Shown here piece by piece: positions 6,430-9,513 of a stretch of 64,000 nucleotides of DNA. Under the pieces are notes generated by a model. It ran no database searches, was not told the origin of the DNA, and saw only the letters and a program-made list of their open reading frames with translations. Origin of the DNA: Nocardioides caldifontis (GTDB taxonomy: Bacteria > Actinomycetota > Actinomycetes > Propionibacteriales > Nocardioidaceae); the NCBI RefSeq assembly GCF_008087345.1, contig NZ_ML701735.1, positions 248,001 to 312,000 on the forward strand. The letters are read 5' to 3'. Numbering within the stretch: the first letter of the stretch is position 1; each line of letters starts with the position of its first letter. The position numbers were made by a program, and so were the translations under genes.

Positions 6430-7074
6430 TCAGGCTGTCGCGGGCGCAGAGTCGCTCTCGTGCGAGCGGCGTGCGTAGGACCGGGCGGCTCGCACGCGGT
6501 CTCCGCACCTGACCGAGCACCAGGTGCGGCGGGCATGGGTGCGCAGCAGCACTCGTTCGCACGAGGGCGCGCCACAACGCGCAACCAGCTCGCCGTCGGG
6601 GCCGGTGAGGAGGTCGGCGAGGTCGGCGGCGATCACCGCGAGTGCCCGGTCCACGAGCTGGGTGACGGGGTGGGCCGCAGCCCGGTGCCACCGGCGCTCT
6701 TCGTCGTACTGCAGCAGCGAGGCCGACGGGACGCTGGTGAGCGCGGCGTTGACGGCCTCGAGTGACTCCGGCGGTGCTGGCCGGTTGTCGACGCGGGCCT
6801 CGAGCAGGGCTCGGACGTGCGTCCGCAGCTGACGCATGCGAGAGGCGCACAGCTCCCGGACATCCGCGGCGGCCGGCGCAAGGCCTACGGCGGCCAGCCA
6901 GGCGCGCGTGGCGTCTGGGGTGGCGAGCAGGTCGACGCGACCGTGCTTCGGCAGCAGGTAGGTGCTGTTGGCCAGCGCGAGCGCGACATGGTCGACCTCG
7001 CCCGGTGCGGGGGTCAGGTCTGTCGTCGCGGTCTCGGTAGCCACGCTCTCATGGTACCCATTTTGCTTTGCCAT
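6430..7074 (-). CDS. CGNR zinc-finger / ABATE-type putative stress regulator
   Basis: A protein of 214 residues from ATG 7074; a GTG ten codons further in is an alternative start. The first 150 residues match the helical ABATE region. The C-terminus carries a four-cysteine finger: C-x4-C, then WCSVRCGDRVRAARSYARR. The family signature CGNR appears here as CGDR. Such proteins are thought to bind DNA through the finger; the ligand of the N-terminal part is unknown. The gene is divergent from the metallo-hydrolase at 7130 across only 55 bp, a typical regulator-target arrangement. Codon use is a little less G/C-biased than in the core genes, fitting an accessory segment. Confidence 0.75.
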   Translation of the reverse strand: MAKQNGYHESVATETATTDLTPAPGEVDHVALALANSTYLLPKHGRVDLLATPDATRAWLAAVGLAPAAADVRELCASRMRQLRTHVRALLEARVDNRPAPPESLEAVNAALTSVPSASLLQYDEERRWHRAAAHPVTQLVDRALAVIAADLADLLTGPDGELVARCGAPSCERVLLRTHARRTWCSVRCGDRVRAARSYARRSHESDSAPATA

Positions 7075-7091
7075 GAGAACTCGCTTACCGT
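7063..7091 (+). promoter_or_regulatory. Candidate promoter of the metallo-hydrolase gene
   Basis: TTGCTT (7063-7068), a 17-nt gap and TACCGT (7086-7091) lie in the short space between two divergent genes and overlap the start region of the CGNR gene. The start would be about 30 nt before ATG 7130, leaving room for the GAGGA ribosome-binding site. Confidence 0.35.
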
Positions 7092-7129
7092 CTCTCACGG
7101 GAGACTTCCCTGCTACCCGTGAGGATGAC

Positions 7130-7903
7130 ATGTCCAACACTGAATCCCAGATCGAGGTCCGCGTGCTCAGCGGCCCGACCACCGTGATCGAGATCGGCGG
7201 GCTGCGCCTGCTGACCGACCCGACTTTCGACGCCCCCGGCGACTACGGGCTCGGCGGCCCGGGGCCGGTGCTGACCAAGACGGAACCTTCGCCTGTGAGC
7301 CCCGAGGAGCTCGGCGCCGTGGACGCGGTGCTGCTGTCTCACGAGCACCACCCCGACAACCTCGACACCTCCGGCCGCGCCTACCTCGCCCAGGTGCCGC
7401 TGGTCGTCACCACGCCCAGTGCCGCCGGCAACCTAGGTGAGCTCGGCGACGCGGCCCGGGGCCTGCAGCCGTGGGAGAGCCTCGAGCTGACCCGCCCGGA
7501 CGGCTCGGCGCTAGTGGTAACCGCGGCGCCTGCGCGGCACGGCCCGGTGGGCTGCGAGCCGGTGACCGGAGAGGTGACCGGATTCGTGCTTTCCGGCGAG
7601 AAACTGCCCACGGTCTACGTCAGCGGCGACAACGCCTCCCTCGACCTCGTCGGCGAGATCGTCCAGCGCGTCGGCCGGGTGGACACCGCGGTGATCTTCG
7701 CCGGAGCCGTCCGTACGCCGTTCTTCGACCAGGCGCTGCTCACCCTCGACGCCGCGCAGGCGGCCGAGGCCGTCCGCCTCCTCGGCGCCCGACGCGCCGT
7801 GGTTGCCCACACCGACAGCTGGGCCCACTTCACAGAGGACCGCGCCGCCGCCGAGGCGGCCTTCGCGGCAGTCGGGCTGGCGGACCGACTCCAGCCCGCC
7901 TGA
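7130..7903 (+). CDS. Metallo-beta-lactamase-fold hydrolase (UlaG/YtxD-like)
   Basis: A cytoplasmic protein of 257 residues starting at ATG 7130 behind GAGGA. The early strand 'GLRLLTDPTF' and the metal motif SHEHHPDN (the HxHxDH position, ending DN) mark the UlaG-like branch of metallo-beta-lactamase-fold enzymes. A second histidine site in 'APARHGP' and the late 'VSGDN' and 'AHTDSWAH' supply further ligands. The substrate cannot be told from the sequence. It is divergent from the CGNR regulator and 146 bp upstream of an efflux pump that has its own promoter, so shared transcription with the pump is doubtful. Confidence 0.8.
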   Translation: MSNTESQIEVRVLSGPTTVIEIGGLRLLTDPTFDAPGDYGLGGPGPVLTKTEPSPVSPEELGAVDAVLLSHEHHPDNLDTSGRAYLAQVPLVVTTPSAAGNLGELGDAARGLQPWESLELTRPDGSALVVTAAPARHGPVGCEPVTGEVTGFVLSGEKLPTVYVSGDNASLDLVGEIVQRVGRVDTAVIFAGAVRTPFFDQALLTLDAAQAAEAVRLLGARRAVVAHTDSWAHFTEDRAAAEAAFAAVGLADRLQPA

Positions 7904-7983
7904 ATGGGCCAAGTCTCGGGGCGCTCCGGCCAGGAACGCCCCGTGACTGCCGGCCGAGGAACGGACTCTGGCACTTCGCTGGA

Positions 7984-8012
7984 TTCGGAAATGTACCCCC
8001 CGGGGGTATCTT
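7984..8012 (+). promoter_or_regulatory. Promoter with CsoR-like palindromic operator
   Basis: A perfect inverted repeat, TACCCCC-C-GGGGGTA (7994-8008), sits between a weak -35 (TTCGGA, 7984-7989) and a -10 (TATCTT, 8007-8012) spaced 17 nt apart. G-tract palindromes flanked by TA are the typical operators of CsoR/RcnR-family repressors, which sense copper, other metals or persulfides. No CsoR gene is visible in the window, so the regulator would act in trans. The transcript would start about 30 nt before the pump's ATG. Confidence 0.6.
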
Positions 8013-8049
8013 TTCGCCTCGTGTCACAAGGATCTACCGAGAGGCCGAC

Positions 8050-9513
8050 ATGTTCCAGGGGACAACGACCCGTGCAGGAACCGAGCGCGCTCTGGTGCCG
8101 TTGCTAGTCATCGCGACGGCACAGCTGATGCTGGTGCTCGACGACTCCATCGTGAACATCGCGTTGCCGAGCATCCAGCGCGAGCTCGGCGTCGACCCAG
8201 TGCACCTGCCCTGGATCGTGAACGCCTACATCCTCGCGTTCGGGGCGCTGCTCCTCCTGGGCGGACGCGTCGGGGACCTGTGGGGCCGCCGCGGCACCCT
8301 CCAGGTTGGACTGGGCCTGTTCGTCCTCGGGTCTCTGGCCGGCGGCCTAGGGCAGAACGCCGAGATGTTGATCGCCGCCCGCGCCGCCCAAGGTGTCGGC
8401 GCAGCGCTCACCGCGCCGAACGCTCTCGCTCTCATCTCCACCACGTTCTCCGAGCGCAAGACCCGCGACTCCGCGCTCGCGCTCTACGGCGCCATGTCTG
8501 GGCTCGGCATTGTGGTCGGGCTGCTCCTCGGCGGCGTGCTGACCGACATCCTCGGGTGGCGGTGGGTGTTCTTCATCAACGTCCCGATCGGGCTGCTCGT
8601 CCTGCTCGGCAGCCGCACGCTGCTGCCCGCCGCACCGCACCGGGGTCAGCTCGGCGTCCTCGGCGGGACTCTCGGAACCGGTGGCATGGTCGCCCTTGTC
8701 TACGCCGTCACCCGGTTCGGGGAGCACGGCTTCACCGACCCCCTCGCGCTCACCCTGCTCGCTGCCGCCGCAGTGCTTCTCACCGCGTTCGTGGCCACCC
8801 AGGCCCGCAGCCGCCACCCGCTGCTGCCCTTGAGTCTGGTCCGCGACCGCAACCGCGGCGGCGCCTACCTGACCATGCTGCTACTGGCCATCGGGCCCAT
8901 GGGCACCTTCTACGTCATCACCCTCCACCTGCAGCAGGTTCAAGGGTTCACCCCGCTGCAGACCGGTGCTGCCTGGCTGCCGTTCGCCATCGGCATCGTC
9001 CTCGGCGCCGGCACCGCGCCCAAGCTGCTGCTTCTGGTCGGACCCCGCTACGTCGCCGCAATGGGCGCCCTGCTCAGCGCCGGCGCAGCGCTGTGGTTCT
9101 CCGCCATCAGCGTGGACACCAGCTATTGGACCCACCTCGCCCCCGCCATGCTGGTCCTCGCGCTCGGGTTCGGCTTCGGCGTCATGGCGCTCACCCAGGC
9201 GGCGGTCTACCACGTCGACCCGGACAAGGCCGGCGTCGCCTCGGCGCTGCTCAACTCCGCCCAGCAGATCGGCGTCGCCCTCGGGCTCGCCGTCCTCGCC
9301 GGGGTCGCTGCCACCGTCACCGCGCAGCCCGAGAACGCCGCCGCCGACCCGACCACCGGGCTCGTCGCCGGCTACAGCACCGCCCTGACCGTGGCCACCG
9401 GACTACTCCTCGCCGCGGCAGCACTGGGGCTCGCCACACTGCGCAGCCGGCCCGCGGACATCGAGGAGCCCCAGCTGGCCGGCACGTCGACGCTGGGAAC
9501 TGCCAGGCGGTGA
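8050..9513 (+). CDS. DHA2-family MFS drug:proton antiporter (EmrB/QacA type)
   Basis: An integral membrane protein of 487 residues with about 14 helices. Near the N-terminus, 'LDDSIVNIALPSIQREL' is the motif D1 of 14-helix exporters, and 'GGRVGDLWGRRGTL' is motif A in the first cytoplasmic loop. The start at ATG 8050 follows GAGAGG. Family members export antiseptics, dyes and antibiotics using the proton gradient; the substrate here is unknown. The operator-like palindrome in its promoter suggests induction by metal or reactive sulfur rather than a TetR-type drug sensor. It stands alone, followed by about 500 bp without an intact gene. Confidence 0.88.
   Translation: MFQGTTTRAGTERALVPLLVIATAQLMLVLDDSIVNIALPSIQRELGVDPVHLPWIVNAYILAFGALLLLGGRVGDLWGRRGTLQVGLGLFVLGSLAGGLGQNAEMLIAARAAQGVGAALTAPNALALISTTFSERKTRDSALALYGAMSGLGIVVGLLLGGVLTDILGWRWVFFINVPIGLLVLLGSRTLLPAAPHRGQLGVLGGTLGTGGMVALVYAVTRFGEHGFTDPLALTLLAAAAVLLTAFVATQARSRHPLLPLSLVRDRNRGGAYLTMLLLAIGPMGTFYVITLHLQQVQGFTPLQTGAAWLPFAIGIVLGAGTAPKLLLLVGPRYVAAMGALLSAGAALWFSAISVDTSYWTHLAPAMLVLALGFGFGVMALTQAAVYHVDPDKAGVASALLNSAQQIGVALGLAVLAGVAATVTAQPENAAADPTTGLVAGYSTALTVATGLLLAAAALGLATLRSRPADIEEPQLAGTSTLGTARR

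Follow-up and report, generated by a model that had tools for sequence, protein, structure and literature searches.

The described systems that come closest to the locus reported here are the CsoR/RicR regulons, i.e., those of Streptomyces lividans CsoR and Mycobacterium tuberculosis RicR, which share with it the operator class, copper-type repressors and copper ATPases as targets, whereas the target considered here is a DHA2-type pump. Current models of copper homeostasis are built around P-type ATPases, together with chaperones, oxidases and RND systems. The RicR target Rv0849 is presumably a shorter MFS protein of another kind. In the available text of PMC10470581, Rv0849 is listed in the RicR regulon as an integral membrane transport protein, which provides a precedent for a transport gene under a copper repressor. 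For the CsoR family it was described that the apo-form represses and that Cu(I) leads to release (accessible parts of PMC3902906 and PMC7558416); the type 2 operators are TAC-N9-GTA dyads flanking G-tracts, and the S. lividans copZA1 probe includes TACCCCCTAGGGGTA (accessible part of PMC3902906). DHA2 drug:H+ antiporters such as EmrB, LmrA, QacA and EfpA have the fold and the drug-pump models in common with the pump of this locus, P0001, for which efflux is predicted; P0001 differs from them by the residues D32, P54, N124, G187, M284 and K325 and by its copper-sensor wiring. CcoA/CalT are MFS proteins tied to copper (accessible part of PMC7558416), but these are importers with MxxxM and HxxxM motifs, and P0001 carries neither. 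No report of a CsoR- or CueR-controlled DHA2 pump was found in a literature search that mostly covered sources other than subscription journals, and a word search for MFS terms in the available text of PMC8478169 and PMC9436591 gave no match.

The window, i.e., the whole analysed stretch of 64,000 nucleotides from Nocardioides caldifontis, contains a 15-mer palindrome of perfect symmetry which, read as TAC-CCCCCGGGG-GTA, corresponds to the CsoR type 2 definition (accessible part of PMC3902906). The original prediction had placed this palindrome between the -35 and the -10 element of a DHA2 pump, and this is the arrangement found (Table 1). The 15-mer is present, whereas the dashes with which it had been written are separators and not bases; read as N, they give no match in the window at up to two mismatches. 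The spacer between the two hexamers is 17 bp long and encloses the operator, whose right TA forms the first bases of the -10 element, and 41 bases separate the end of the operator from the ATG of the pump.

Table 1. Features around the pump promoter; positions are those of the window.
Feature	Position	Strand	Evidence and remarks
ABATE/zf-CGNR regulator	6430..7044	-	PF07336 3.5e-26, PF11706; divergent from MBL gene
MBL-fold hydrolase, probably separate transcript	7130..7903	+	PF12706 1e-17; upstream of pump
-35-like element TTCGGA	7984..7989	+	3/6 to consensus; weak alone
CsoR-type (type 2, TAC-N9-GTA) operator TACCCCCCGGGGGTA	7994..8008		one of six exact matches in the genome; none for the reversed pattern
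-10-like element TATCTT	8007..8012	+	4/6 to consensus
GAGAGG, probable ribosome-binding site	8039..8044	+	5 bases 5' of ATG; inferred from sequence
DHA2-type MFS pump P0001, 487 aa, no Cys	8050..9513	+	MFS_1 match, NCBIfam models, AlphaFold2

It had also been suggested to look for the same palindrome elsewhere in the genome, and this revealed five further exact sites, located at copper genes, at a pump and at a DUF4396 gene. In total, TACCCCN3GGGGTA matches six times in the 4.8 Mb genome and the reversed control not at all; from the base composition of the window, approximately 0.007 matches are expected per window and 0.50 per genome (Poisson P 1.4e-5 for six). The looser half-site pattern TACCN7GGTA gives seven matches compared to five for the control, which is not clearly above background, showing that the signal of the site resides in the long C/G tracts. 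Besides the window site, there are two exact sites in the region that separates csoR from a second DHA2 pump, two that precede units of an HMA protein and a downstream P-type ATPase (L011, L013) and one that belongs to DUF4396. Among 18 further matches in the genome search, this second DHA2 pump comes closest to the window pump (54% identity); it is encoded divergently from csoR-copA and has its own operator. With 524 bits, the ATPase adjoining csoR exceeds the cut-off of the copper-translocating model TIGR01511 (397 bits), and the ATPases of L011 and L013 were assigned from Pfam matches only.

Several observations were made at these sites. The P-type ATPase L013:2844-5339 on the reverse strand, behind the operator at C9:120393, has CPD in place of the CPC motif seen in L009 and L011, which makes its metal uncertain. 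The perfect CsoR-type operator at G000:C5:184489-184503 (L012:5990-6004) lies 5' of a His-rich DUF4396 membrane protein, which may be a copper-response protein; in Geodermatophilus and Arthrobacter, DUF4396 homologues are also encoded close to relatives of the pump (L072, L075, L081, L082, L086). An unnamed ORF without Pfam match (L009:6903-7943) is located between csoR and copA and has relatives in pump loci of Geodermatophilus (L084) and of Bacteroidota (L065, L078, L085).

GTDB contigs were scanned by protein using both pumps as queries, resulting in 358 relatives, of which 80 were analysed. The pattern TACCCN5GGGTA has 36 matches in the 80 loci and none in the reversed control; in 21 loci the operator is at most 350 bp from the pump start (30 sites), and nine of these 21 have two operators 29-36 bp apart. 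The genera include Actinoplanes, Cellulomonas, Geodermatophilus, Arthrobacter and Actinotalea and, furthermore, Brevibacterium, Promicromonospora, Corynebacterium, Janibacter and Microbacterium. A scan of window positions 7000-9000 with a generic sigma-70 consensus returned no promoter. Among the relatives' pump-linked sites, a TTG starts exactly 10 bp 5' of the operator in 12 of 30, some of them from close relatives, compared to at most two sites at any of 19 alternative offsets in the range of 25 to 6 bp, and the base following the operator's TA is a T in 22 of 30. As the hexamers are poor and the scan was negative, the promoter assignment is based on this comparison with relatives. The weak -35 element and the about 0.5 sites expected in the genome would fit a chance or decayed palindrome in front of a constitutive pump. 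However, the symmetry is perfect, the position is that of a promoter, the same site is found at the paralogue and at copper genes, and it is conserved in the relatives at the numbers given above; this explanation is thus rejected on count, position and conservation and appears scarcely credible.

A lack of any CsoR-family protein in the genome would have spoken against CsoR-type control, as had been pointed out beforehand. The genome encodes three, P0004 and P0005 of the copper type and the CstR-like P0006. P0004 and P0005 have the PF02583 fold (E 2.8e-28 and 6.1e-30), and both show the Cys...His-x3-Cys ligands and the conserved Gln of copper CsoR proteins, i.e., C43/H68/C72 and Q49 in P0004 and the same columns in P0005. 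In the PDB, P0004 is matched best by CsoR of S. lividans (4adz, E 1e-26). The RicR model NF052430 (cut-off 175 bits) is missed by both (116.8 and 147.1 bits), which is why they are addressed as CsoR/RicR-like and not as RicR. With two copper-type repressors carrying the C-H-C ligands and a palindrome recurring at copper genes, the reading as CsoR-type control is supported. Control by nickel/cobalt or by formaldehyde was considered and rejected, the NCBIfam cut-offs of RcnR and FrmR being reached by none of the three proteins. An imperfect operator, TACCCCCAGGGGGTG, is located just 5' of the start of the other copper-type csoR (L008:6383-6397), which may therefore control itself.

P0006 possesses C34 and C64 and no His ligand, and its neighbour is a rhodanese/lactamase-fold protein; on the basis of the absent His and of this neighbour it is called CstR-like, and persulfide sensing is predicted for it, two Cys without His next to persulfide-type neighbours being the hallmark of CstR. 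A CstR-like gene beside such a neighbour in the same genome raises the alternative that P0006 reads the operator and that the pump exports polysulfides or thiol persulfides, and Arthrobacter plasmid sulfur modules combine a CsoR-family gene with an MFS transporter (available text of PMC6305408). Matches to the rhodanese/lactamase-fold gene are also present in the related pump loci L084, L140, L065 and L085, but in the related loci as a whole copper genes are matched more frequently than sulfur genes. Moreover, the CstR-like locus carries two sites of 14 bp (N8), whereas the window site and the five other exact sites are of 15 bp (N9). N8 matches the genome four times in total; the two matches away from the CstR-like locus, one beyond the stop of an RpoC-like ORF and the other within an ORF, look like chance, and for this reason N8 spacing is no proof of CstR. 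The spacing at the window site speaks for the copper branch rather than the persulfide branch, the N8/N9 rule being derived from few sites, and persulfide control of the pump is judged very improbable.

In a pump tree of 102 rows, all 23 operator-bearing rows fall into one set of 50 rows (SH-aLRT 98), and the 52 rows outside of this set have no operator. The set consists of a 20-row clade with the second pump (support 96) and a 30-row group with the window pump (84). The window pump's own clade comprises 16 rows (support 100) with the operator in 11; the remaining five are without a strict proximal site, and L138 has none even under a loose definition. Mapped on the tree, the operator label changes eight times compared to approximately 20.7 times in shuffles (0/500 as low).

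For a uniform count, three near-copies were dropped and L108 was left out, leaving 44 distinct loci in the set. Within these, an operator within 350 bp is found in 21, a CueR-type box in 8 and a match to a copper gene or MerR-family protein in 20, so that 41 have at least one of them, compared to 0, 0, 1 and 1 of the other 33 loci; the groups were drawn after the operator labels were known, and the contrast is therefore descriptive. Placing L108 inside the set, as on the tree, gives 41/45 versus 1/32. A stricter count, which drops the loci with a generic MerR only (L066, L067, L076 and L087, and L104 outside the set) as well as L140, whose CsoR-family match may be CstR-like, gives 36/44 versus 0/33. 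The set loci L077, L116 and L138 show no copper link, and neither does L108. The wiring differs by phylum, with CsoR operators in Actinomycetota, CueR-type boxes in Pseudomonadota and HMA proteins in Bacteroidota. The CsoR-type site of the window pump is confirmed, and, going beyond the original prediction, the wiring is no peculiarity of a single pump; it is a trait of a subfamily across phyla. In two Streptomyces pump promoters (L116:5907-5946 and L140 near 5952) TAC...GTA sites were observed in which the all-C and all-G tracts are mirrored, forming one long palindrome, and this arrangement is possibly a variant operator.

Across 120 genomes from the family of the window's genome, with E values up to 1e-80, none of the matches listed from outside the own genome exceeds 49% identity, for which reason the pumps are regarded as accessory in the family, and none of the 29 loci from this own-family search has a CsoR-type site. 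Regarding the genes upstream of the window pump, homologues of the MBL gene are present in 4 of the 80 loci, i.e., near related pumps in L072 and L075 (67-69% identity) and at most 6 kb from the pump in L130 and L132 (44-45%), and homologues of the ABATE/zf-CGNR gene are found near a related pump in six. The pair of ABATE/zf-CGNR gene and divergent MBL gene was also observed near the Geodermatophilus pumps of L072 and L075. On pTC2 (L147) a DUF1470-annotated gene, which we take to be of the ABATE/zf-CGNR kind, adjoins the pump, and LLM and isochorismatase genes follow the pump.

The relatives include copper operons and islands. Geodermatophilus telluris has the order csoR-CuORF-copA-pump (L084), an Arthrobacter locus has copA-csoR-pump followed by an AhpD-like gene (L101), L103 and L111 have operator-HMA protein-pump, and in the Bacteroidota loci L065, L078 and L085 an HMA protein (PF00403) is encoded before or after the pump. 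In Pseudomonadota the pump promoters carry a CueR-type box in 11 of the 80 loci (control 0), corresponding to seven distinct loci if five near-identical ones count once. CueR copper operons of the copA-cueR kind are adjoined by the pump, with a CueR-type box, in L090, in L105 and on the Marinobacter plasmid pMAD49a (copA-cueR-HMA-pump, with the box 5' of the pump), and differ from the known operons by the additional MFS pump gene, for which the annotation says no more than 'MFS transporter'. The MerR protein beside copA is CueR by TIGR02044 (cut-off 147.4) in L090 (177.4 bits) and L105 (178.6 bits), whereas the one adjoining the pump in L067 fails this model (85.2 bits). In L092-L096, five genome records from four alphaproteobacterial genera, the pumps are identical or nearly so and share one CueR-type box, which suggests a recent horizontal spread of a copper island. 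The Rhodococcus plasmid p_4-4_B carries the copper island copA-pump-copA-csoR with two operators at its head; on pTC2 the site lies 564 bp before the pump, and on the Arthrobacter plasmid pAD52 no such site was found at the pump relative. On all four plasmids the pump is annotated as MFS transporter or as EmrB/QacA drug transporter. Furthermore, AhpD-like CMD genes adjoin six Micrococcales pumps and glutaredoxin-MauE fusions precede five Pseudomonadota pumps (L066, L067, L070, L073, L076), and these thiol-disulfide-type partners point to an organic cargo tied to copper or thiol stress. A MerR-family regulator was observed nearby in the latter five loci, that of L067 being under the CueR cut-off.

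The best NCBIfam models of P0001 are LmrA and EmrB; for the EmrB subfamily model TIGR00711 it scores 216.1 bits, just under the cut-off of 230.2, and the L084 relative passes with 253.3 bits. In the AlphaFold2 model (mean pLDDT 90.8) 14 predicted transmembrane helices were counted from the helix list, which together with the MFS_1 fold corresponds to DHA2 drug:H+ antiporters. The nearest solved fold is mycobacterial EfpA (8ufe, TM 0.77/0.80), 31-34% identical to P0001. A residue comparison of 46 members (the window pump, its 54% identical paralogue and the 44 loci) with 29 other DHA2 pumps revealed a recognisable signature: D32 (46/46 versus 2/29), P54 (46/46 versus 3/29), N124 and G187 (each 46/46 versus 4/29), M284 (45/46 versus 0/29) and K325 (43/46 versus 1/29). 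D31/D32, N124 and M284 would be located in the first, fourth and ninth transmembrane helices of P0001 as counted in the model. A low cysteine content was considered as a mark of the subfamily and discarded: 38 of 46 members are without Cys, but the 29 other DHA2 pumps have a mean of only 0.9.

These data bear on what the pump transports, for which a metal-ligand complex, a thiol adduct or a copper-active drug had originally been proposed. EfpA may move an envelope lipid, and since it is the best match in sequence and fold, with one EfpA structure titled as a lipid complex, the pump might do the same and copper might merely signal envelope damage. However, the identity to EfpA is low, 8ufe has S, T and T at the positions of D32, N124 and N58, respectively, and copper-gene neighbours in three phyla are left unexplained by a lipid cargo, which we thus hold to be quite improbable. 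Alternatively, the pump might itself export copper ions and thus supplement CopA with an MFS protein: its regulon is shared with copper ATPases, and M27, M149 and M284 are present in 44, 46 and 45 of the 46 members. M284 is confined to them in this comparison, but M27 and M149 occur in most of the 29 comparison pumps as well (27/29 and 20/29), P0001 has no Cys and none is conserved, a search of P0001 found no MxxxM or HxxxM motif of the CcoA type, and the fold and the best models are those of drug and lipid exporters. The absence of Cys, MxxxM and HxxxM leans towards an organic substrate over the bare ion, and direct copper export is considered rather unlikely.

The explanation we prefer, and regard as likely, is a copper-derepressed drug:proton antiporter for the export of an organic molecule that is toxic in connection with copper. 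The copper-sensor wiring of the pump is well supported by the sequence comparisons, and copper stress probably turns on this pump for something other than bare copper; from these comparisons we infer operator binding, induction by copper, transport direction and substrate. A copper-type CsoR would bind the palindrome between the -35 and the -10 element and block the promoter; the most likely candidate is encoded beside copA (C2:356143), and its paralogue at C1:436093 is a possible one. With a rise of Cu(I) in the cytoplasm, CsoR would be loaded with copper and release the DNA, and both DHA2 pumps would be derepressed together with csoR, the copper ATPase units and the DUF4396 protein. The pump would then act as drug:proton antiporter, its most likely cargo being a copper ionophore, a copper-ligand complex or a thiol/quinone product of copper stress. 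Against this explanation count the distance of 100 kb between csoR and the window pump and the -35 element, with only three of six consensus positions and no promoter from the scan; against a solely organic cargo count the conserved methionines 27, 149 and 284, by which copper handling is possible.

In a broader sense, and more tentatively, the DHA2 subfamily might be an unrecognised and horizontally spread one that forms a second arm of the bacterial copper response; it would have come under CsoR in Actinomycetota and, separately, under CueR in Pseudomonadota, and it would expel copper ionophores or copper-ligand complexes, e.g., from competing microbes, while CopA expels the metal; this extension we see as possible but somewhat doubtful. 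With a drug-type pump under copper sensors in several phyla, cells would handle copper stress partly as an organic-toxin problem, and exposure to copper would be linked to the expression of a multidrug-type pump that is also present on conjugative plasmids. A gene annotated only as 'MFS transporter' thereby gains a testable inducer and a residue signature by which it can be recognised.
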